From positions 1,643,527 through 1,707,526 of the forward strand of contig NZ_AP024678.1 of assembly GCF_025999095.1 (NCBI RefSeq): a stretch of DNA of 64,000 nucleotides, written 5' to 3'. The position numbers and the translations under genes were made by a program. Under the pieces are notes generated by a model. It was not told the origin of the DNA. It searched no databases and saw nothing but the letters and a program-made list of their open reading frames with translations. Within the stretch, counting starts at the first letter, position 1. Every line of letters begins with the position of its first letter. Source of the stretch: Thermosynechococcus sp. GTDB lineage: Bacteria; Cyanobacteriota; Cyanobacteriia; Thermosynechococcales; Thermosynechococcaceae. This document shows, in pieces, positions 1,752-38,386 of this stretch.

Positions 1752-4700
1752 ATGCAAAGCGATCAACAAAAGCGCATTCTCGGCTACTTCATTGAGGAAG
1801 CGCAGGAACACCTGACCACCATTGAAGATAGTTTGATGAATCTCCAGCAGGTAGTCAATGACCCTGAGGCGATGAGTGAAATGTTTCGGGCAGCCCACTC
1901 CGTCAAAGGGGGAGCGGCCATGCTCGGACTCCACAGTATTCAGCACACCGCCCACAAGCTGGAGGACTACTTCAAAATCCTACGGGAGCATCCCGTCACC
2001 GTGGATGAAACCCTAGAGCAACTGTTTTTGCAAGCCTTTGATGCCCTGCGGGAACTCCTCGATGAATTGCAAGGCCCCTTTGGTTTGACGGAGGAGACAG
2101 CAACCGCAACCCTGAACCGGGTGGAGCCAGTCTTTAGTCAACTGCAAGCTCACTTGAGCCACTTGACCCAAGGAGGAGAGGCGCCGCCTCCTGTAACTGC
2201 TGCTTCTTCCCCCGTGGCCGAACCCATTGCGCCAGCGGTACAACCCGTTGCTGATTCAAGCTACCGCCTAGTCTTTCAAACGGAGGTCCCCGATCGCCTG
2301 CGGGCAATGTTGCAGCTCTTTAAGCAGACCGATTCGCCCCAAGTGCGGCAAGCATTGGCGGAGGCCTGTTCTAATTTGGGTCAATTGGGGGAAACCTTTG
2401 CCCTGCCCCAGTGGGTTGAATTGCTGGCGATCGCTCAACAGGCGGTGAGTAACACGGCTCAGCCCCTCACGGCTTTGGCACCAGTGGTGATCAAAGAGAT
2501 TATGGCAGCTCGCGACTTGGTGCTCAATGGTCAAGGCAGTGCGATTCGTCCCAGTGACAGTTTAGTGGCGCTTCAACCCCCTGTGATTGAGGAAACTGCG
2601 GCGGTTGTTCCCGAAGGGCCAGAGCCTTCGGTCTTGGCATCAGCCCCCGTGACCGAATCACCGGCACCCCTTGAAATGGCCTCTGAGGTTGCTCCGCCAG
2701 AGGTGGCTGCCCCTGAAGAAGTTGAGATTTCCGAGCCAATGAGTGGCGGCCATGGTGTCACTGTTTTTGAGGAGGAAAGTAGCACTGATTTCCAAGAATT
2801 GAGTGACATTTTTAGTGATCCAACGGCGCTGCCGACGGAGTGGCTAGAGGAGACCCTTGAGGAGAATTTGGCCAATTTAGGACCGGGCGATGAAGCGGCC
2901 TTTGATGAGGAGATTTCCGACTTTTTGAACATGATGGCTTCTGAGGAGTTGCCTGAGGCAGAATCCAGCCTTGAGGCCATCCTCGATGAAATTCAGGAAC
3001 TTTCTGATGAGCAGCTCTCTGCAGAAGGAGGGGAGGCATCCCTTGATGATCTCATGTCGCCAGCGATCGCCGAAAGCATAGCTGAAGCCCTTGAGGCGCC
3101 CCTGACACCTGACCGTCCTACCGAGGAGAGGGCAGCCGCAGAGCCCGCCGAACTCGATCTGAGTGCATTCCTTGAACAATTCACCGAGGAAGCCCCCTCA
3201 GGGATGGCAGCTTTTGATGAGGCAGTGGCTTCCCTAGAAGAGTTTTGGGGTGAGGTGGAAACCCCCGCGGCTCCCGATCTGCTTCCCCTAGAAGAGGATT
3301 CTGAAATCCCTGCCTTGAGTGATGTTGCTGAGGATGTGGCTGAGTTCCTCGAAGAGGTACCGGGTCTCAATGATGTCCTAGAAAACTTGGTTGTGGATAA
3401 TGGGGCGGAAGAAGCCCTTTCAGAATTTATTACCCCAGCAAGCACTGACGATCCTTGGGCGGAAACGCCATCCTCCTTGGAGGCGCCAGCGATCGCCGAG
3501 CCAAGTATGCCGGAAGTCACAGCGGCAAATATGACTGAACCCGAAGCACTCGTGGAGGAGGTCCTAGCCTCTGCCGAGACGGAGGGTATCGCCGAGCTAG
3601 AATCCCTCTTGGAGGCGTCTGTACCCTCTGCTGAGGCGGCGAGCATTGCTGAGCCAGAAGCAGTGGTGAATGACGCCACCGCCCCTGCCACCCCCGAAAG
3701 CGTCCTGGAGGAATTAGAGGGGTTAATTGAGCAAAGTACAACCCCTACAACCCCACCCGAGGCTGCCCCATTCCACGAATTGGATCAGCTTTTGGAGACG
3801 GCGGCAGCACCGACATCGGCCTTTGAGGATCTAGAGCAACTCCTGGGGCAAGCCACCCCTGGGGCACCCACACCACCGCCACCAACAGCAACGCCTTCCA
3901 CGGCTGAGGATAGTTTTGCCGATCTAGAGAAATTAATTCCCCAACCCGCAGGGAGGAGTGAAAAGGCAGCCACCCCGCGGCGAACGGCAGCAGGGGCAAA
4001 AGGCGGCTCCTTGGTGGAACAAACCATGCGTGTACCGGTGCGCCACCTCGATACCCTGAGTAACCTCGTTGGGGAGTTGGTGGTCAACCGCAATAGCCTC
4101 GAAGACACCCAAGAACGTCTGCGGCAGTTCCTCGATAACTTGCTCTACCAAGTCCAACAACTGGGGGAGGTCAGCCAACAAATGCAGGACCTCTACGAGC
4201 GATCGCTCCTAGAGAGTTCACTGTTGGGCGCGACAACTGCACGGGCAGCCAATGGCCAAGGAGAACAGAGCACCCACGCCACAGGTGTCGAGTTTGATGC
4301 CTTGGAAATGGATCGCTTTACCGGCTTCCACACCCTTTCTCAGGAGGTGATCGAGCGGATTGTGCGGGTGCGGGAGGCCGCCGACGATATCCAGTACGTA
4401 ATTGATGAAGTGGAGCAGGTGGCCCGGCAGTTTCGTCAAGTCACGACCCAAGTCCAAGAGGGCTTGAGCCGCTCCCGAATGGTCCCCTTCCGTGAAATGT
4501 CTTCCCGCTTACCGGGAGCTGTGCGCCGCGTTGCCAGTACCATCGGCAAACAAGTAGAACTCAAGATTGAGGGAGAAGATACCCTCATTGACAAGGGGAT
4601 CCTTGAAAAACTCTTTGACCCAATGACCCACCTGATCAATAACGCTGTCTATCACGGTATTGAAATGCCCGAAGAGCGGCGGCGATTGGGCAAACCTGAA

Positions 4701-5951
4701 AAAGGCCTGATTCGCGTACGGGCCTTCTATCAAGGTAGTCAAGCGATTATCTCCGTCAGTGACGATGGGGCGGGAATTGACCCAGAACGGGTAAAACGCA
4801 AGGCGATCGAGAAGGGTCTCCTGAAGGAGGCCGATGCCCCCAACCTTTCCCGCCAAGAGGTCTATGCCTTCCTCTTCCAATCGGGATTTAGCACCAAAGA
4901 TCAAGCGGATGCCCTGGCGGGTCGCGGTGTGGGTATGGATGTGGTGCGCAAAAATCTGGAGGACATTCGCGGCACCATTAACATTGACTCCACGGTAGGC
5001 AAAGGCACGACATTTACCATCCGCTTGCCCCTGACCCTGAGCATTACCAAAGCCCTCTGTTGCATTGATAACCACTGCCGCATTGCCTTCCCCATTGACG
5101 GCGTGGAAGATATGCTGGATATTCCCCAAGAGCGCATCCAAACCCGAGAGGATGGTCAGCGCGTCCTCTCGTGGCGCGATCGCCAGCTGCCGGTGCGTAA
5201 ACTCGGGGATTTGCTGAAGTACAGCCGCCAGATCAGCCGTAGCAATGTCTATGGCGGTAGTACCCAAGATGATGGCATGGTCTCGATTGTCGTGCTGCGC
5301 AGTGGCGACGATCTCGTAGCCATGGAGGTGGATCAGGTCATTGGTGAACAGGAAATCGTGATCAAGCAGTTGTCGGGGCCGGTACCGAAGCCGGTGGGGG
5401 TTGCTGGGGTCACTGTCCAAGGGGATGGCCGCGCGATGGCGATCGCTGACGTGCTGGAAATTATTGACCTGTCCCTAGGACGCATGGATCGCGAGTGGCG
5501 CGGGTTTGGCCACACCATGGAGGTTGCCGAGCCAGAGGAAGCCTCGGAGCCCCTAGTGCTGATCATCGACGACTCAATTACGGTGCGGGAGTTGCTCTCA
5601 ATGACCTTTACGCGGGCAGGCTACCGCGTCGAGCAGGCCCGCGATGGTCAAGATGCCTGGGAAAAACTGCGCTCTGGCTTGCCCTGTGACCTGGTGTTCT
5701 GTGACATTGAGATGCCCCGCATGGATGGTCTGGAGTTGCTCTCGCGGATTCAAAAGGATCCTAAGCTCAACCATCTGCCGATCGCCATGCTCACCTCCCG
5801 GGGCGCCGATCGCCACCGCAGAATGGCCGCCCAACTGGGGGCACGGGCCTACTTTACCAAGCCCTACCTGGAGGAGCAATTACTGGATGCGGCGGCGCGC
5901 CTCCTCAAGGGTGAAGTTCTGGTGCAACAGGAGCCGACACCTACCCCATGA
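1752..5951 (+). CDS. Hybrid CheA-type histidine kinase with C-terminal receiver (PilL-like)
   Basis: Kinase of a type IV pilus/phototaxis-like chemosensory pathway. The order is: N-terminal Hpt domain with phospho-acceptor His49 (AAHSVKGG); an unusually long acidic Ala/Glu/Pro-rich linker (about residues 280-730); P3 dimerisation helices; HATPase domain with N box (HLINNAVYHG) and G boxes (DDGAGID, GRGVGMDVV); CheW-like domain; and a receiver domain with DDS at its start, acceptor Asp in FCDIEMPRMDG and Lys in FTKPY. The start lies 18 bases after the receptor stop, behind a GGGAGGGGG ribosome site. It is far longer than E. coli CheA because of the linker and receiver. The next gene overlaps it by ATGA, so they are probably cotranscribed. 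Confidence 0.95.
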   Translation: MQSDQQKRILGYFIEEAQEHLTTIEDSLMNLQQVVNDPEAMSEMFRAAHSVKGGAAMLGLHSIQHTAHKLEDYFKILREHPVTVDETLEQLFLQAFDALRELLDELQGPFGLTEETATATLNRVEPVFSQLQAHLSHLTQGGEAPPPVTAASSPVAEPIAPAVQPVADSSYRLVFQTEVPDRLRAMLQLFKQTDSPQVRQALAEACSNLGQLGETFALPQWVELLAIAQQAVSNTAQPLTALAPVVIKEIMAARDLVLNGQGSAIRPSDSLVALQPPVIEETAAVVPEGPEPSVLASAPVTESPAPLEMASEVAPPEVAAPEEVEISEPMSGGHGVTVFEEESSTDFQELSDIFSDPTALPTEWLEETLEENLANLGPGDEAAFDEEISDFLNMMASEELPEAESSLEAILDEIQELSDEQLSAEGGEASLDDLMSPAIAESIAEALEAPLTPDRPTEERAAAEPAELDLSAFLEQFTEEAPSGMAAFDEAVASLEEFWGEVETPAAPDLLPLEEDSEIPALSDVAEDVAEFLEEVPGLNDVLENLVVDNGAEEALSEFITPASTDDPWAETPSSLEAPAIAEPSMPEVTAANMTEPEALVEEVLASAETEGIAELESLLEASVPSAEAASIAEPEAVVNDATAPATPESVLEELEGLIEQSTTPTTPPEAAPFHELDQLLETAAAPTSAFEDLEQLLGQATPGAPTPPPPTATPSTAEDSFADLEKLIPQPAGRSEKAATPRRTAAGAKGGSLVEQTMRVPVRHLDTLSNLVGELVVNRNSLEDTQERLRQFLDNLLYQVQQLGEVSQQMQDLYERSLLESSLLGATTARAANGQGEQSTHATGVEFDALEMDRFTGFHTLSQEVIERIVRVREAADDIQYVIDEVEQVARQFRQVTTQVQEGLSRSRMVPFREMSSRLPGAVRRVASTIGKQVELKIEGEDTLIDKGILEKLFDPMTHLINNAVYHGIEMPEERRRLGKPEKGLIRVRAFYQGSQAIISVSDDGAGIDPERVKRKAIEKGLLKEADAPNLSRQEVYAFLFQSGFSTKDQADALAGRGVGMDVVRKNLEDIRGTINIDSTVGKGTTFTIRLPLTLSITKALCCIDNHCRIAFPIDGVEDMLDIPQERIQTREDGQRVLSWRDRQLPVRKLGDLLKYSRQISRSNVYGGSTQDDGMVSIVVLRSGDDLVAMEVDQVIGEQEIVIKQLSGPVPKPVGVAGVTVQGDGRAMAIADVLEIIDLSLGRMDREWRGFGHTMEVAEPEEASEPLVLIIDDSITVRELLSMTFTRAGYRVEQARDGQDAWEKLRSGLPCDLVFCDIEMPRMDGLELLSRIQKDPKLNHLPIAMLTSRGADRHRRMAAQLGARAYFTKPYLEEQLLDAAARLLKGEVLVQQEPTPTP

Positions 5952-24018: not shown

Positions 24019-25332
24019 ATGGCTCAAGAATTTGGACTTGGACGCCGGAAATTTTTAGTCTATGGCTCAGCCGCATTGGGAACGAGCCTTCTGATTAAAG
24101 GGTGTGCTCCAGCTACAGAAACCGGAGGTGGTGGACAACCAACCGCCGCTGGTGGTGACACTATCAAAGTAGGGATTTTGCATTCCTTAAGTGGCACCAT
24201 GGCCATTAGTGAAAAGAGTGTGGTGGATGCTACCCAACTGGCCATTGAGCAAATCAACCAAGCGGGGGGGGTTCTGGGCAAGCAGATTCAACCTATTCTG
24301 GAGGATGGGGCATCTGACTGGCCGACCTTTGCCGAAAAAGCCACGAAATTAATCGATCAAGATAAAGTGGTAGCGGTTTTCGGCTGCTGGACTTCTGCTT
24401 CTCGGAAAGCAGTACTGCCGGTTTTTGAATCCAAGAATCACATGCTTTGGTACCCTGTGCAGTACGAAGGTCAAGAGTGCTCGAAAAACATTTTTTACAC
24501 GGGTGCCGCTCCCAACCAGCAAATCGAACCTGCCGTAGATTGGCTCCTGCAAAACAAGGGTAAGAAATTTTTCTTAGTGGGCTCAGACTACGTCTTTCCC
24601 CGCACGGCCAACACAATTATCAAGGCACAACTGGCGGCTAAAGGTGGTGAAACAGTGGGTGAAGACTATCTGCCCTTGGGTAACACCGAAGTCACGCCCA
24701 TCATTACTCGCATTCGCAATGCCTTGCCGGATGGCGGTGTGATTTTCAACACCCTCAACGGCGATAGCAACGTGGCCTTCTTTAAGCAGTTGCAGGGAGC
24801 AGGTCTGACACCAGATAAATACCCAACGATGTCCGTCAGTATTGCTGAGGAAGAGGTTCAAGCCATTGGCGTTGAGTACCTCAAGGGGCAGTATGCTGCT
24901 TGGAACTACTTTATGACTGTGGATACCCCTGAAAATAAATCGTTTGTCGAGGCCTTCAAAGCGAAGTTTGGCCAAAACCGCGTCACCAATGATCCAATGG
25001 AGGCCGCCTACATTGCCGTTCACCTCTGGAAACAGGCCGTGGAACAGGCAGGCACAGCTGACGATTTGGAAAAAGTGCGCCAAGCTGCCATTGGCCAGAC
25101 GTTTAATGCCCCGGAAGGTCCCGTGAAGATGTTTGCGAACCACCACATTTCCAAAACAGTGCGCATTGGTGAGGTGGGTGAAGATGGTCTCTTTAAGATT
25201 GTTTACTCCACACCCCAACCCGTGGATCCGCTGCCTTGGAACCAGTTTGTGGCGGAAACGAAGGGGCTTGTCTGCGACTGGACGCGCACTGATGTGGATA
25301 ACCCCGGCAAATTTAAGGCTACGGGGGCTTGA
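24019..25332 (+). CDS. urtA: Urea ABC transporter, substrate-binding protein
   Basis: Periplasmic urea-binding component of UrtABCDE. The N-terminus has a twin-arginine-like GRRKFLVYGSA followed by a lipobox-like LLIKGC (Cys about residue 32), so it is exported and probably lipid-anchored. The mature part is a type I amide-family binding protein (VGILHSLSGTMAISE). The frame is open from 23968, but the NtcA promoter places the transcript start after that codon, so the ATG at 24019 is chosen (437 residues). An intact in-frame G8 run lies at 24264-24271. Confidence 0.95.
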   Translation: MAQEFGLGRRKFLVYGSAALGTSLLIKGCAPATETGGGGQPTAAGGDTIKVGILHSLSGTMAISEKSVVDATQLAIEQINQAGGVLGKQIQPILEDGASDWPTFAEKATKLIDQDKVVAVFGCWTSASRKAVLPVFESKNHMLWYPVQYEGQECSKNIFYTGAAPNQQIEPAVDWLLQNKGKKFFLVGSDYVFPRTANTIIKAQLAAKGGETVGEDYLPLGNTEVTPIITRIRNALPDGGVIFNTLNGDSNVAFFKQLQGAGLTPDKYPTMSVSIAEEEVQAIGVEYLKGQYAAWNYFMTVDTPENKSFVEAFKAKFGQNRVTNDPMEAAYIAVHLWKQAVEQAGTADDLEKVRQAAIGQTFNAPEGPVKMFANHHISKTVRIGEVGEDGLFKIVYSTPQPVDPLPWNQFVAETKGLVCDWTRTDVDNPGKFKATGA

Positions 25333-32058: not shown

Positions 32059-33204
32059 ATGACAGCAAGCACACCTACGTCAAGTTCAGTAGCACAAGTG
32101 GGCGACAAAGCATTGGCATTTCCAGCGCGGGTAATTCAGAAGGTGATTGGCGATCGCCTCTCCGGTCACTTAATATTTACCGATCCGCGGGACCCCTCCA
32201 TCGGCTGGAACCTGTATGTGGGCAATGGTCAACTGCATTACGCCAATAGCACTGTTGGCCATCAGGAACGCTTCAACTACCTGTGTCAACGCTATTGCCC
32301 TCAACTCAGCACCACACTTGCAACCGATGAAACGGAGTATCAGTATCTCTGTCGTCTTTGGCAACAGGGGCAATTGACCCTTCCCCAACTGCGTAAGCTA
32401 CTCTTTCTCTTTAGTCAAGAAGCGCTGGTTCATATCTTTGCCATGCCCCAAGCCGCGTTGCAGATGGAGCGGGTGGCGGGTCTTGATCACTTGGTTCTCT
32501 GTGTGCCGATCAAGGAAACTCTGAGTCAACGGCGGCAAGCCATTACCCAAGCAGTACAGGTGCGCACCTATTTGAACTCGCCGCTGCAACGACTGGTGCT
32601 AACCACAACCGAGGGAGTTCCCGCTGATCTGTGGCCAATGGACTATGGCCGCAATATTGCCGCTGCCTTGCCTCAACTCTTGGAGCAGACACCCGTACTC
32701 TATGAAGTGGCGACTCAGTTGCGCATGGAGGCGATCGCCACTGCTCAGTTACTGCAACCCGCCTTAGTCAATGGTTTGATTGCCCAGCATCCCTACACTA
32801 TCCCCACCAGTGATACTCGCCCCATCGTGGCTTGTATTGACGATAGCCGCACCATTCAGCGCAATGTCCGCCTCATTTTGGAAACCTGTGGTTACCGGGT
32901 GCTAGGCTTGATGCAACCAACCCATGCCCTAAGTGCCCTCAATGATACCAAGCCTGACTTAGTCTTGATGGATATCTCGATGCCAGACATGGATGGCTAT
33001 GAGCTATGCCGTCAACTGCGGCAAACAGAAGCCCTTAAGGATGTGCCAGTAGTCATGCTCACAGGGCGCGACGGGCTAGTGGATCGGATTCGAGCACGGA
33101 TGGCAGGGGCGACCGAGTATTTAACGAAACCCTTTACGCCACAGGAGTTACTATCGTTAGCGGAGCGATTCACTCAGACTGCGGCAATGGAGAGTCATTC
33201 ATGA
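32059..33204 (+). CDS. PatA-like response regulator: PATAN (DUF4388) domain plus receiver
   Basis: First gene of the second chemosensory operon (PixG/PilG position). The N-terminal 150 residues resemble the PATAN/DUF4388 domain (GDRLSGHLIFTDPRDPSIGW); the C-terminal receiver (about residues 255-375) has the DDS acidic pair, acceptor Asp in LVLMDISMPDMDG, Thr in VMLTGRDG and Lys in LTKPF. In cyanobacteria such proteins regulate pilus motors and phototaxis, interacting through PATAN. The ATG of the next gene overlaps its stop. Confidence 0.92.
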   Translation: MTASTPTSSSVAQVGDKALAFPARVIQKVIGDRLSGHLIFTDPRDPSIGWNLYVGNGQLHYANSTVGHQERFNYLCQRYCPQLSTTLATDETEYQYLCRLWQQGQLTLPQLRKLLFLFSQEALVHIFAMPQAALQMERVAGLDHLVLCVPIKETLSQRRQAITQAVQVRTYLNSPLQRLVLTTTEGVPADLWPMDYGRNIAAALPQLLEQTPVLYEVATQLRMEAIATAQLLQPALVNGLIAQHPYTIPTSDTRPIVACIDDSRTIQRNVRLILETCGYRVLGLMQPTHALSALNDTKPDLVLMDISMPDMDGYELCRQLRQTEALKDVPVVMLTGRDGLVDRIRARMAGATEYLTKPFTPQELLSLAERFTQTAAMESHS

Positions 33205-33578
33205 AGCAGGTGCTAGTCGTTGAGGATTCCCGCACAGAGCAAACCATGATTGTCTCAATTTTAGAGAAATTGGGACACCAGGCCCATGTGGCGGAAACAG
33301 CGGAAAAAGCCATGGAATGGTTGGCTACGCATCAGCCACCGGATTTGATTGTGCTCGATATTGTGATGCCAGGAGCCAATGGCTTTGAACTCTGCCGCGA
33401 AGTACGGGCAAATTCCCTCCTCAAGACGGTGCCGATTATCTTCTGCTCCTCTAAGGATCAGGACTTTGATCGTTTTTGGGCGTTGCGTCAGGGGGGAAAT
33501 GCCTACATCACGAAACCCTTTGAACCGCAAGATTTAATTGAAACCATTAACGAGTACTTACCTCCCTTGCCTCAATGA
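33201..33578 (+). CDS. CheY-like single-domain response regulator (PilH/PixH type)
   Basis: A 125-residue receiver with no output domain. Acidic pocket VVEDSRTEQ, phospho-acceptor Asp in LIVLDIVMPGANG, Ser in IIFCSSKDQD and Lys in YITKPFEPQ. It overlaps both neighbours by ATGA. In this operon type the second regulator is usually a phosphate sink or antagonist of the PatA-like one. Confidence 0.94.
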   Translation: MKQVLVVEDSRTEQTMIVSILEKLGHQAHVAETAEKAMEWLATHQPPDLIVLDIVMPGANGFELCREVRANSLLKTVPIIFCSSKDQDFDRFWALRQGGNAYITKPFEPQDLIETINEYLPPLPQ

Positions 33579-34072
33579 TGTCTGTGAGTGCCCCAGTCCT
33601 TCAGGAATACTTTCATGTGGAACTGCCCCAAGGGGTGAATGTAGCGATTCCCCTTGGCCAAACGGCGCAGGTTTTAAGCGTTGAGCCACGGGATATTTGT
33701 CTGGTGCCGGGGGTTTCGGCCGCTCTTTTGGGCATTAGTAACCACCGGGGGCGGTTATTGTGGATGCTTGACCTATTGAAGTTGCTGGGGGTGCAGTATG
33801 CTTGGGGGCGATCGCCCCACCAACGTTGGACGGCAGTGGTCATGCAAGATACTGATGGCTCGTCACCGCGTCAACTGGCGTGTTTGGTGAGTCAACTGCG
33901 GGGCATTATTCATGTGTCGCCAGAGCAGCAGCAGCCGGTGCCCCAGCGACTTCAAGGGCAGCTGCAGCAGTATTTGCAGGGTTTTGTGCGGTTGGATCGC
34001 CTGCCAATCTTACTATTGAATGTTGAAGCCGTTTTTCAAGCTGTTGCCCATTCAGCTGCGCCAGACCTATGA
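33575..34072 (+). CDS. CheW-like scaffold protein (PilI/PixI type)
   Basis: A 165-residue CheW-domain protein that would couple receptor to kinase. The domain runs over almost the whole length: [23 protein letters not shown], then [20 protein letters not shown] and [18 protein letters not shown] overlaps on both sides show tight translational coupling within the operon. Confidence 0.9.
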
Positions 34073-35628
34073 CCTCCCTTGCTAATTCCACCCCGCCGAC
34101 CTCATCCCTGAGCGATCGCTACTTCAATGCCATCCTCACTCAGGATATCCCGACCCTGCGCGCCCTCCTTGAGGAAGAACCCACTGATCATTTGGTACAG
34201 TTGACCCTAGCCACTGCCCTTGAACAGGCGGGTGATGTTGCTGCCGCCAAAGACCTTTATCGGGCGATCGCCGAAGCAGATCAGGGAATTTTTGGTCAAA
34301 GTGCCCGCCATGCCTTGGCACTACTGCAGACAAGCCCTGCGCCTCCCCCGCTCCCCCCACTGCCCAGTGCCCCTGTTGCCGCTACCCCCATTCCCCTAGG
34401 ACGGGGTCAAATCAAACAGTTGCGGCAGGGGCTGCACACCTTAGAAACATGGCTAGTGCAACTCCAGCAACAGGAGTGGCATAGCCCCTTGCCTGAGTTT
34501 AACGATCCTCAACTCGCCGCCATTGGCCAAGGCATTGCCGTCTTGGTCGCTCAGCTCCAGCAGCAGCAGGATGAGATTCAAGCCCTCGAAGCCCAACGTC
34601 AAGGGGAACTACAGCGGCAGCGCCAAGAACGGATGAAAATGCAGGAGGCAGTGATTAACCTATTGCTGGATATTGAAGGAGCCCAGCGGGGAGATCTCAC
34701 CGTACGCGCCAAGGTGGATGCAGGGGAAATGGGTTCCATTGCCGATGCTTTCAATGCCACAGTGCGTAGTTTGCGTCAAATTGTCGTCCAAGTCCAAGCT
34801 GCCGCCAACCAAGTCCAAACCGCTGCCCAAATCACCCAGGGGGCGATCGCCGGATTGGTTGCCGGGGCAACCCAGCAAGCCGCCGACATTGATCGCAGTG
34901 TGGAAGCGGTCGAAACAATGGCCGCCTCAGTGCAAGCAGTAGCCAAGTCTGCCCAAGAAGCAGCAGCGATCGCCGCAGAGGGGTTGACGGCAGCACAATT
35001 GGGGGATACAACTATGGACACCACCGTGGAGAGTATGGAGAATATCCGCCTCAGCGTGGCCGAGACCGCCAAGAAAATGAAACGCCTCGCTGAATCCTCC
35101 CAAGAAATCTCCAAAATCATCAACATCATCTCCAACATCTCTGAGAAAACCAACCTTTTGGCCTTTAATGCTTCGATTGAAGCTGCCCGCGCTGGGGAGC
35201 ACGGCCAAGGCTTCCGGGTGGTGGCCGATGAGGTGCGCCGCCTGGCCGAGCGAGTCACAGATTCAGCACGGGATATTGAGCAGCTAGTGACGGGGATTCA
35301 GCAGGAGACGGCTGAGGTGCTTCAGGAAATGGAAGTCAGTACGGCACAAGTGGTCAAGGGCACCCAGTTGGTGAGTCAAACCAAAGCAACATTACAGGGA
35401 CTCGCTCGCCTCAACCAACAAATTGATTCACGACTGCAAATGATTTCTGAGCGCACCGCCTTGCAAACATCCACTGCGGCAGACGTGATGGAGACGATGC
35501 AGGGAGTTGCCCAGATGGCACAAACAACAACGTCAGCCGCTGCTGCTGTGGTCGATGCCATGGACAGTCTAGTCGCCGTTGCCGCAGAACTGCAGGCCTC
35601 GGTATCGCGGTTCCGTGTGGATCCTTAG
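34069..35628 (+). CDS. Soluble methyl-accepting chemotaxis-like receptor (PilJ/PixJ type)
   Basis: A 519-residue receptor with no membrane segment. The N-terminal region looks like a tetratricopeptide-type helical unit ([23 protein letters not shown], about residues 40-90), then a Pro-rich spacer, a helical segment with HAMP character (about 200-240), and the signalling domain with hairpin tip [19 protein letters not shown] (about 362-380). No GAF or chromophore-binding domain is present, unlike PixJ photoreceptors. It likely senses a cytoplasmic cue or a partner protein. Confidence 0.9.
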
Positions 35629-35641
35629 AGATGGATAACCT

Positions 35642-38251
35642 ATGACCCTCGATGCCGCCGACCTGGATGCAATTACCCAAGAAGCACGCCATTGCTTCCT
35701 CTACGAGGATGCCCCGGAGTATCTACTGCTCCTCGAACAATGGGCAGAGCAAGTGGCCACCGATCCCGAGCGGCACTGTACGGCTGAGGATTACAACAGG
35801 CTGATGCGGGCAGCGCATTCCCTCAAAGGGGGGGCTGGGATTGCCCAACTCAGTGAGCTACAGGCCTTGAGCCATCGCCTAGAGGATGTTCTGGAAGCCC
35901 TCAAAGAGGGCCGCCTGGGCGATCGCCCCCGTGCCCATCATCTTCTGGTTCAAGGCATTGAGCAGGCCCAAGAACTCTTGGCCGCCGCCAAACAGAATCA
36001 TTCCTTAACACCAACGCCCCACTATCAAGCCCTTCTTGCAGCCCTCACGGAACTCCTCGGCGCCGTCTCAGCCACACCCTCGCCCTCCACTGCCGCTCCC
36101 CCCGATCTACGTACCGCCTTGACACAAACCCTTGAGGAGTCCCTGCAGATCCTAGAGGCGAGTGCCACGGATGCAGAGCGGGAGACGGCCTTGGCTCACC
36201 TGATTGCCACGGCCCACACCCTAGGGAAACAGTACGCCCTGCCTTGGTTGCAGCAACTGGCCGCCGAATTACCGAAGTTGGCAGCGGATTTGCCCCTTGG
36301 GGAATTAGTGCCCGCCATTGTCGCTGAGTGTCGTCAATTGCAGCAGGCAGAACTGGTCAAGTTACTGCCGCCTGAAGCGACCCCTACCCCGCCTGCGGCC
36401 ACAACTCCCCCCCAAGACAGCTATCTGCGCATTCCCGTTAGTCGGCTGGATCGCCTCGGTAACACTGTCAGCGAATTGCTCATTGGCCAAGAACGCCTCA
36501 CCCTCTATCAACAGCAGTTCTTGCGGGCCAATCGCGAACTTAAGCACCGCCTTGAGCAATTTCGCCCCATTCGCGATCAGGTACAGACTTTTTACGATCG
36601 CTTGGCCACCCCCCTGGGCGGTCGCGGTCGGCCAACGAATGGCCACAATGACTTTAACGGCCACAATGACTTTGATGCCCTGCAATTTGACCGCTACACA
36701 GAACTGCACACCGCCCTCCAGGATTTTCAAGAATTGCTGGTGCGGATTCAGGAGACAGGCGCCGATATTGATCTGCTCAACCGCGATCTCCAAGAAGCCC
36801 TTGATCTCAACCGCCAGCACTTAAATAGTCTCTACGCTGAACTGACGAATTCCCGCTTGCTGCCCTTTCGCCAACTGGCAGCAAAGTTTGTGACCGCTGT
36901 GCAAGCCTTAGGCGATCGCCACCATAAACCGGTTCAACTGGTGATCGAGGGGGGCGATACCCTTGTAGATCAAGTGATTTTGCAGCAACTCAAGGCCCCC
37001 CTGACCCATCTGGTGCGCAACGCCTTTGACCACGGTCTTGAGCCGCCCGAACAGCGGCAACAACTGGGCAAGTCCCCGCGGGGAACCATTTGGCTACGGG
37101 CGCAACTGCGGGGGAATGCCGTGGAAATTCAGGTGGCCGATGATGGTCGGGGAATTGATCTGCAACGGGTGAGTCAAAAAGCGGTGGAACTGCAGCTTTG
37201 CTCTGCCGAAAAAGTTCCTCACCTGAGCCGCGAGCAGATTTTGGAATTTCTCTTTGTACCGGGGTTTTCAACCGCCAAGCAGGTGAGTGATCTCTCTGGT
37301 CGGGGGGTAGGACTGGATGTGGTGCGTGAGCAAGTGCGGCGATTGCGGGGGCGTCTGCAGATTACCACTGAACCCCAGCAGGGAACGACCTTCAGCCTCA
37401 CCCTCCCCTTGACCCTGAGTCTGCTGCCCATGGTACTGTGTCAAGTCGGGGAGCTAACCTTGGCCATCCCAGATTTGAGTATCCGCGAAGTCATTGCCCT
37501 CAAGGAATACACAGATATTCGCCACCCCAGCCCCACCATTGATTGGCAAGGACAATCCATTCCCCTGTGCCCACTGCATCAATTGCTGCCCTATCAGCGT
37601 CCCCTGAGTGCGCCAACGCAGCCCCTTGGTGTGGGTGTGGTTGTGGATGTGGCTGGTCAGGCGGTGGCCTTGGCGGTGAACTATCTCATTGCCGAGCGGG
37701 AGTTAGTGGTCAAGCCCTTTGATCAAACGGTACCCGTGCCCCCCTACGTCATGGGTTGCACGGTTCTGGGAAGCGGGGAAGTGGTGCCGGTTCTGGCTCC
37801 CGATAATTTTACGGTGCTGCTGAGGCCAAGGGCGGTACCGGCCTCGCCGATCATGGCAAGGCCCCAGCAGCGCACCATTCCCCAAGTGCTCATTGTCGAT
37901 GACTCCATTACCGTGCGACGGCTCCTGGATCGTGTGCTGCGGCAGGCGGGCTACGATGTGGTGCAATGCCGCGATGGCAAGGAAGCCTTGGATTTCCTCC
38001 TTGGTCAAGGGGATCAAGTCTCCCTTGTGATCACAGATGTCGAGATGCCCCGCCTCGATGGCTATGGCTTGCTAGAGGCAATTCGTCTTTCGGCGCGTTT
38101 ACGCCATTTACCCGTTGCAATATTAACCTCCCGGGGGGGGGGATACCCACCGCCAAAAAGCCTTTCAACTGGGTGCCAATGGCTACATTACCAAGCCCTT
38201 TCAACCCCAAGGGTTGCTGCAAACGGTAACCCAACTGCTCGCTGGTCGTGA
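35642..38251 (+). CDS. CheA-type hybrid histidine kinase, receiver domain frameshifted at a G10 run
   Basis: Kinase of the second chemosensory operon. Hpt His59 (RAAHSLKGGAG), HATPase N box HLVRNAFDHG, G boxes VADDGRGID and SGRGVGLDVV, CheW-like domain, then a receiver with acceptor Asp in LVITDVEMPRLDG. After ILTSRGG the reading frame leaves the family pattern at a run of ten G (38133-38142) and ends in unrelated residues at 38251. With nine G the frame would continue as DTHRQKAFQLGANGYITKPF, restoring the conserved receiver Lys, and stop at 38279 (878 residues). The kinase core is intact either way. It could be a sequencing error, a real mutation, or a slippage site. Confidence 0.9.
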   Translation: MTLDAADLDAITQEARHCFLYEDAPEYLLLLEQWAEQVATDPERHCTAEDYNRLMRAAHSLKGGAGIAQLSELQALSHRLEDVLEALKEGRLGDRPRAHHLLVQGIEQAQELLAAAKQNHSLTPTPHYQALLAALTELLGAVSATPSPSTAAPPDLRTALTQTLEESLQILEASATDAERETALAHLIATAHTLGKQYALPWLQQLAAELPKLAADLPLGELVPAIVAECRQLQQAELVKLLPPEATPTPPAATTPPQDSYLRIPVSRLDRLGNTVSELLIGQERLTLYQQQFLRANRELKHRLEQFRPIRDQVQTFYDRLATPLGGRGRPTNGHNDFNGHNDFDALQFDRYTELHTALQDFQELLVRIQETGADIDLLNRDLQEALDLNRQHLNSLYAELTNSRLLPFRQLAAKFVTAVQALGDRHHKPVQLVIEGGDTLVDQVILQQLKAPLTHLVRNAFDHGLEPPEQRQQLGKSPRGTIWLRAQLRGNAVEIQVADDGRGIDLQRVSQKAVELQLCSAEKVPHLSREQILEFLFVPGFSTAKQVSDLSGRGVGLDVVREQVRRLRGRLQITTEPQQGTTFSLTLPLTLSLLPMVLCQVGELTLAIPDLSIREVIALKEYTDIRHPSPTIDWQGQSIPLCPLHQLLPYQRPLSAPTQPLGVGVVVDVAGQAVALAVNYLIAERELVVKPFDQTVPVPPYVMGCTVLGSGEVVPVLAPDNFTVLLRPRAVPASPIMARPQQRTIPQVLIVDDSITVRRLLDRVLRQAGYDVVQCRDGKEALDFLLGQGDQVSLVITDVEMPRLDGYGLLEAIRLSARLRHLPVAILTSRGGGYPPPKSLSTGCQWLHYQALSTPRVAANGNPTARWS
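38133..38142 (+). other. Run of ten G causing a frameshift
   Basis: Ten consecutive G within the receiver-coding part of the second CheA gene. Nine would keep the receiver in frame. The 46-codon continuation (38142-38279) lies in the shifted frame and encodes the missing half of the receiver including ITKPF. Confidence 0.9.
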
Positions 38252-38386
38252 TGCTGCTGTGGCGACTTTCAGCCACTAAAGCTATCAGAGTGCATTGCCG
38301 CGAAAATTTTTATGAAACATGGCGATCGCCAGATTGCGTGGACATCCTTGCTAGGATCGGGGTGACTTGCGCTGGAGAGAGCAACC

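Follow-up and report, generated by a model that had tools for sequence, protein, structure and literature searches.

Among the described systems closest to the locus analysed here are the tax1, tax2 and tax3 clusters of Synechocystis, which encode TaxAY hybrid kinases, in which CheA carries a C-terminal receiver (CheA-REC), together with a PATAN-type regulator, CheY, CheW and a methyl-accepting chemotaxis protein (MCP; PMC7656254, PMC5812497). Within the genus Thermosynechococcus, a spontaneous frameshift in tll1859, which hits a C-terminal signalling domain in a regulator linked to motility, reverses phototaxis in a culture of T. vulcanus (strain WT_N), a case that was verified experimentally and has a phenotype (PMC9090330). 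The G-tract contingency loci of Campylobacter carry pure G tracts within coding regions (PMC8355987), and the rescue of indels in homopolymers by slippage has been documented for A/T runs (PMC6260861). Homopolymers matter for assembly as well: according to PMC8812927, errors in their length are what most often remains wrong in bacterial assemblies built from long reads only.

Here, we analyse a run of ten G (G10) that breaks the receiver domain of a CheA-REC kinase in a Thermosynechococcus genome. Judged by sequence comparison, the break is most likely an artefact and otherwise an ordinary recent mutation, and readings that give it a function are unsupported.

A taxis-like operon ending in a CheA-REC gene

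The window, that is, the whole 64,000-nt stretch of DNA analysed, corresponds to G000:C1:1643527-1707526 of the 2,497,893-bp Thermosynechococcus chromosome. The CheA-REC gene is the final gene of a taxis-like operon that also encodes a regulator, a CheY-like protein, a CheW-like protein and an MCP-type protein (Table 1). This gene content matches that of the Synechocystis tax clusters, and the kinase has the Hpt, HATPase, CheW and C-terminal receiver domains of the TaxAY type; in contrast to those clusters, the assembled sequence puts the receiver out of frame, although that domain is whole in congeners. The receiver is complete in the window's first CheA (1752-5951), where the Pfam Response_reg match covers positions 1-110 of 111.

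Table 1 Features of the taxis-like operon and of the interrupted receiver (positions in the window).
Feature	Position	Strand	Basis and remarks
Response regulator with DUF4388 (PATAN-like) N terminus and receiver	32059..33204	+	Pfam; same operon as CheA-REC
CheY-like stand-alone receiver, intact	33201..33578	+	Pfam
CheW-like protein	33575..34072	+	Pfam
MCP-type signalling protein	34069..35628	+	Pfam
Assembled ORF of the CheA-REC hybrid kinase (869 aa), with Hpt, HATPase_c and CheW domains and a truncated Response_reg	35642..38251	+	ORF and Pfam
Receiver domain, first part, in frame, with phosphoacceptor region ITDVEMPRLDG	37886..38132	+	ORF and Pfam
G10 run, one base off relative to the nine-base site (GGGGAGGGG) of the closest orthologues	38133..38142	+	Sequence, alignment
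End of the receiver, orphaned in the other frame: 45 residues (...GANGYITKPF...), stop TAA at 38277-38279; sequence conserved with the intact congeners	38142..38279	+	Translation

The frame break at the G10 run

Direct reading confirms the ten G reported in the original prediction. The assembled CheA ORF reads LTSRGGGYPPPKS... across the tract and meets a stop 36-37 codons further on, whereas the other frame continues past the tract as DTHRQKAFQLGANGYITKPFQPQGLLQTVTQLLAGRDAAVATFSH, which is, as had been proposed, a normal and complete receiver end. The division between a broken receiver and a whole kinase core also stood: the Response_reg profile is covered only at positions 1-79 of 111, and the Pfam domains Hpt (residues 22-111), HATPase_c (454-591) and CheW (597-722) are intact, so the kinase core is untouched. 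A one-base change in the length of the run flips the reading frame, as it does at contingency loci. The run also has the length of a slippage-site homopolymer (about 9 or more), but it consists of G and not of A or T. The G8 run in urtA (24264-24271), which had been described as in frame for comparison, is so, with a TIGR03407 match over positions 1-361 of 361.

Comparison with congeneric species

CheA-REC orthologues are present in seven of ten congeneric species, and all seven are in frame at the tract site. In the five nearest ones, whose DNA is 88-91% identical across a 531-bp probe, the site reads CGG GGA GGG GA(T/C), that is, GGGG-A-GGGG; these nine bases are in frame and the receivers are whole, which bears out the earlier suggestion that nine G would be the in-frame length. 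The receiver end is likewise in frame at this site in the two more distant species. No G run of such length occurs at the site in any congener orthologue, and the alignment reveals neither a conserved slippery tract nor one maintained among orthologues. Because the five closest species all read GGGG-A-GGGG, there is no old, conserved tract; the uninterrupted G tract is an innovation of the present lineage, in which a synonymous third-position change from GGA to GGG joined two G4 runs and one extra G broke the frame. Over about 26 kb aligned with the congener compared across the window, which we take to be T. vestitus BP-1, the G10 run is the sole uncompensated single-base indel within an ORF.

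The orphaned receiver end has a pN/pS of 0.09-0.43 against the five relatives, and the intact relatives give 0.09-0.41 among themselves. The receiver end is thus undecayed, and any loss of its frame must be recent. An old, fixed pseudogene, which we also considered, is ruled out by this absence of decay.

The remaining three species (G004, G006 and G009) have no close CheA-REC orthologue, their best matches being paralogues of about 38-42% identity, which makes the cluster an accessory element of the genus. A search of genome contigs, from which that of the window was excluded, matched other species only, with Thermosynechococcus sp. M98_K2018_005 as the best match (90%). Plasmid records gave no match, and a search of viral contigs with the left flank of the tract found no independent copy.

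In one congener (G001; 2,659,739 bp), the CheA-REC orthologue is split by two frameshifts away from the tract site, one of them beside a G7 run. A single frameshift splits the gene that corresponds to the window's first CheA; the two split loci lie at G001:C1:2360400-2363500 and G001:C1:2330200-2332500. These breaks may be decay or assembly errors.

Long G/C runs across the genome

Word counts give 96 G/C runs of exactly 8 bases in the genome and 16 of 9, and a single run, the one in cheA, reaches 10. It is the longest, yet it lies on a smoothly falling tail of lengths, and long G tracts are not in excess genome-wide. G8 words are not commoner than expected within the window either (4 observed against 5.78 in shuffles). 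Nothing here suggests that the genome has a family of contingency tracts.

We inspected the reading frame at each of the 17 runs that reach 9 bases or more and at about 70 runs of 8, some of which lie near gene ends or between genes, where the frame cannot be judged. Almost all of the runs fall in frame inside long ORFs. Fifteen of the 17 look in frame, several with a Pfam domain spanning the run; examples of in-frame runs are found in genes for aminotransferase V, VWA, flavoprotein, pantothenate kinase, MlaE, NAD synthase and CHASE2 domains. Three G9 runs that seemed odd at first (L161, L164 and L167) were rejected as breaks, since they lie in whole genes with normal ends. Only two of the roughly 90 inspected runs of 8 or more are clearly out of frame, those in cheA and folD. 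Poly-A runs of at least 9 bases number five in the genome, too few for a test of homopolymer errors at other bases.

folD as a control

A G9 run in folD (G000:C1:810295-810303; L157:1501-1509) throws the final part of the gene out of frame and divides its PF02882 match between two frames. The gene is intact in all ten congeners, where the run is interrupted and mostly reads CCGGGGGGCGT; here, the interrupting base is lost and there is one base too many, which gives nine G. Loss of FolD in a cell without Fhs should be lethal. A PF02882 search of the genome found no second copy, and no FTHFS/Fhs alternative was found in it. We therefore infer that folD is essential in this strain. An organism with a single folD and no Fhs should not survive its loss, so the assembly very probably has +1 errors in long G runs: the same type of indel stands in a gene that, on this argument, cannot be lost.

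Origin of the tenth G

The original prediction offered four explanations, of which two, a sequencing error and a mutation, here a recent one, fit the data best. The other two, a contingency tract and transcriptional slippage, lack support, given that the tract is absent in relatives, that long G runs are not in excess in the genome and that single-copy folD also carries an extra G.

We favour, with a probability of roughly 0.6, a length error of the assembly or sequencing, which placed a tenth G on a real G9 tract. In the living cell, the tract would then consist of nine G and the CheA-REC kinase would be intact. The synonymous GGA-to-GGG change produced an uninterrupted tract, the type of sequence hardest to count, and a homopolymer-length error would then have added the tenth G in the assembled sequence. 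The argument runs through folD: if that gene is essential, its extra base is an error, and the one in cheA probably is too. Both breaks are most simply put down to one cause, a +1 error in the length of long G runs in the assembly. The locus resembles homopolymer errors described for bacterial assemblies (PMC8812927, PMC12007338) in having one extra base in the longest G/C run of the genome, orthologues that are in frame and a matching event in an indispensable gene, and it differs in that the error here is a probable one, deduced from the assembled sequence. Against a length error, the remaining long G runs look correct, so the error rate of the assembly is low, and a frameshift merely a few generations old would look identical.

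Such a frameshift, a real +1 slippage mutation that arose recently in the sequenced culture and is fixed or mixed there, is the next reading to be weighed, and we consider it unlikely. It would truncate the receiver and probably alter the taxis-like output, perhaps as a loss under laboratory culture. Long pure G tracts are prone to mutate, and the cluster looks dispensable, with three congeners lacking a close orthologue. The broken orthologue in G001, with its two frameshifts elsewhere, and the split counterpart of the first CheA point the same way, except that these breaks may themselves be assembly errors. The tll1859 frameshift of T. vulcanus provides a precedent in the same genus and likewise strikes a regulator linked to motility in a C-terminal signalling domain; it lies, however, in another gene. 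Against a recent mutation stands the parallel +1 in single-copy folD, which points to a shared technical cause.

Slippage during transcription of the G10 run, or a ribosomal +1 shift there, could yield some full-length protein, for cheA and folD alike, so that the cell could tolerate the two broken genes together, and PMC6260861 cites ancient frameshifts maintained in this way (Wernegreen et al. 2010). We nevertheless regard it as highly improbable. The documented rescues concern A/T runs, on which slippage by the bacterial RNA polymerase is comparatively modest (PMC6260861), and the slippage literature searched contained nothing on G runs. Ribosomal -1 shifting would lead into the third frame and not into that of the receiver. 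The production of both forms by slippage, as had been proposed, finds no support in a tract that congeners have not conserved.

The least probable reading is the phase-variable contingency tract controlling motility that had been put forward, in which replication slippage between nine and ten G turns the receiver on and off. A pure G10 inside the coding part of a motility-type regulator, its rank as the longest G/C run in this genome and a conserved downstream frame would suit it; the Campylobacter loci are alike in having a pure G tract in a coding region. This reading is countered by the lack of the tract in all congeners (no conserved tract, in contrast to Campylobacter, and a locus known from assembled sequence alone), by run lengths that fall smoothly without excess, by a companion case in a housekeeping enzyme (folD) and by a literature search on homopolymer phase variation of motility in cyanobacteria that found no direct precedent.

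Should the G10 run nonetheless be real and variable in DNA or RNA, which we hold to be very unlikely, the gene would give two CheA forms, with and without a receiver that may serve as phosphate sink or output. Such an on/off tract in a motility regulator would be of recent origin and specific to this lineage, and it would be a rare case of a cyanobacterial chemotaxis kinase under homopolymer control. On the favoured reading, a length error, the locus is a warning: +1 errors are very probably present among the longest G runs of the assembly, in folD too, and frameshifts at such runs in it should not be taken as biology without reads.

The CheA-REC gene shows one further peculiarity in the linker at 36620-36680, where an extra in-frame stretch relative to BP-1 contains the short repeat NGHNDFNGHNDFD.
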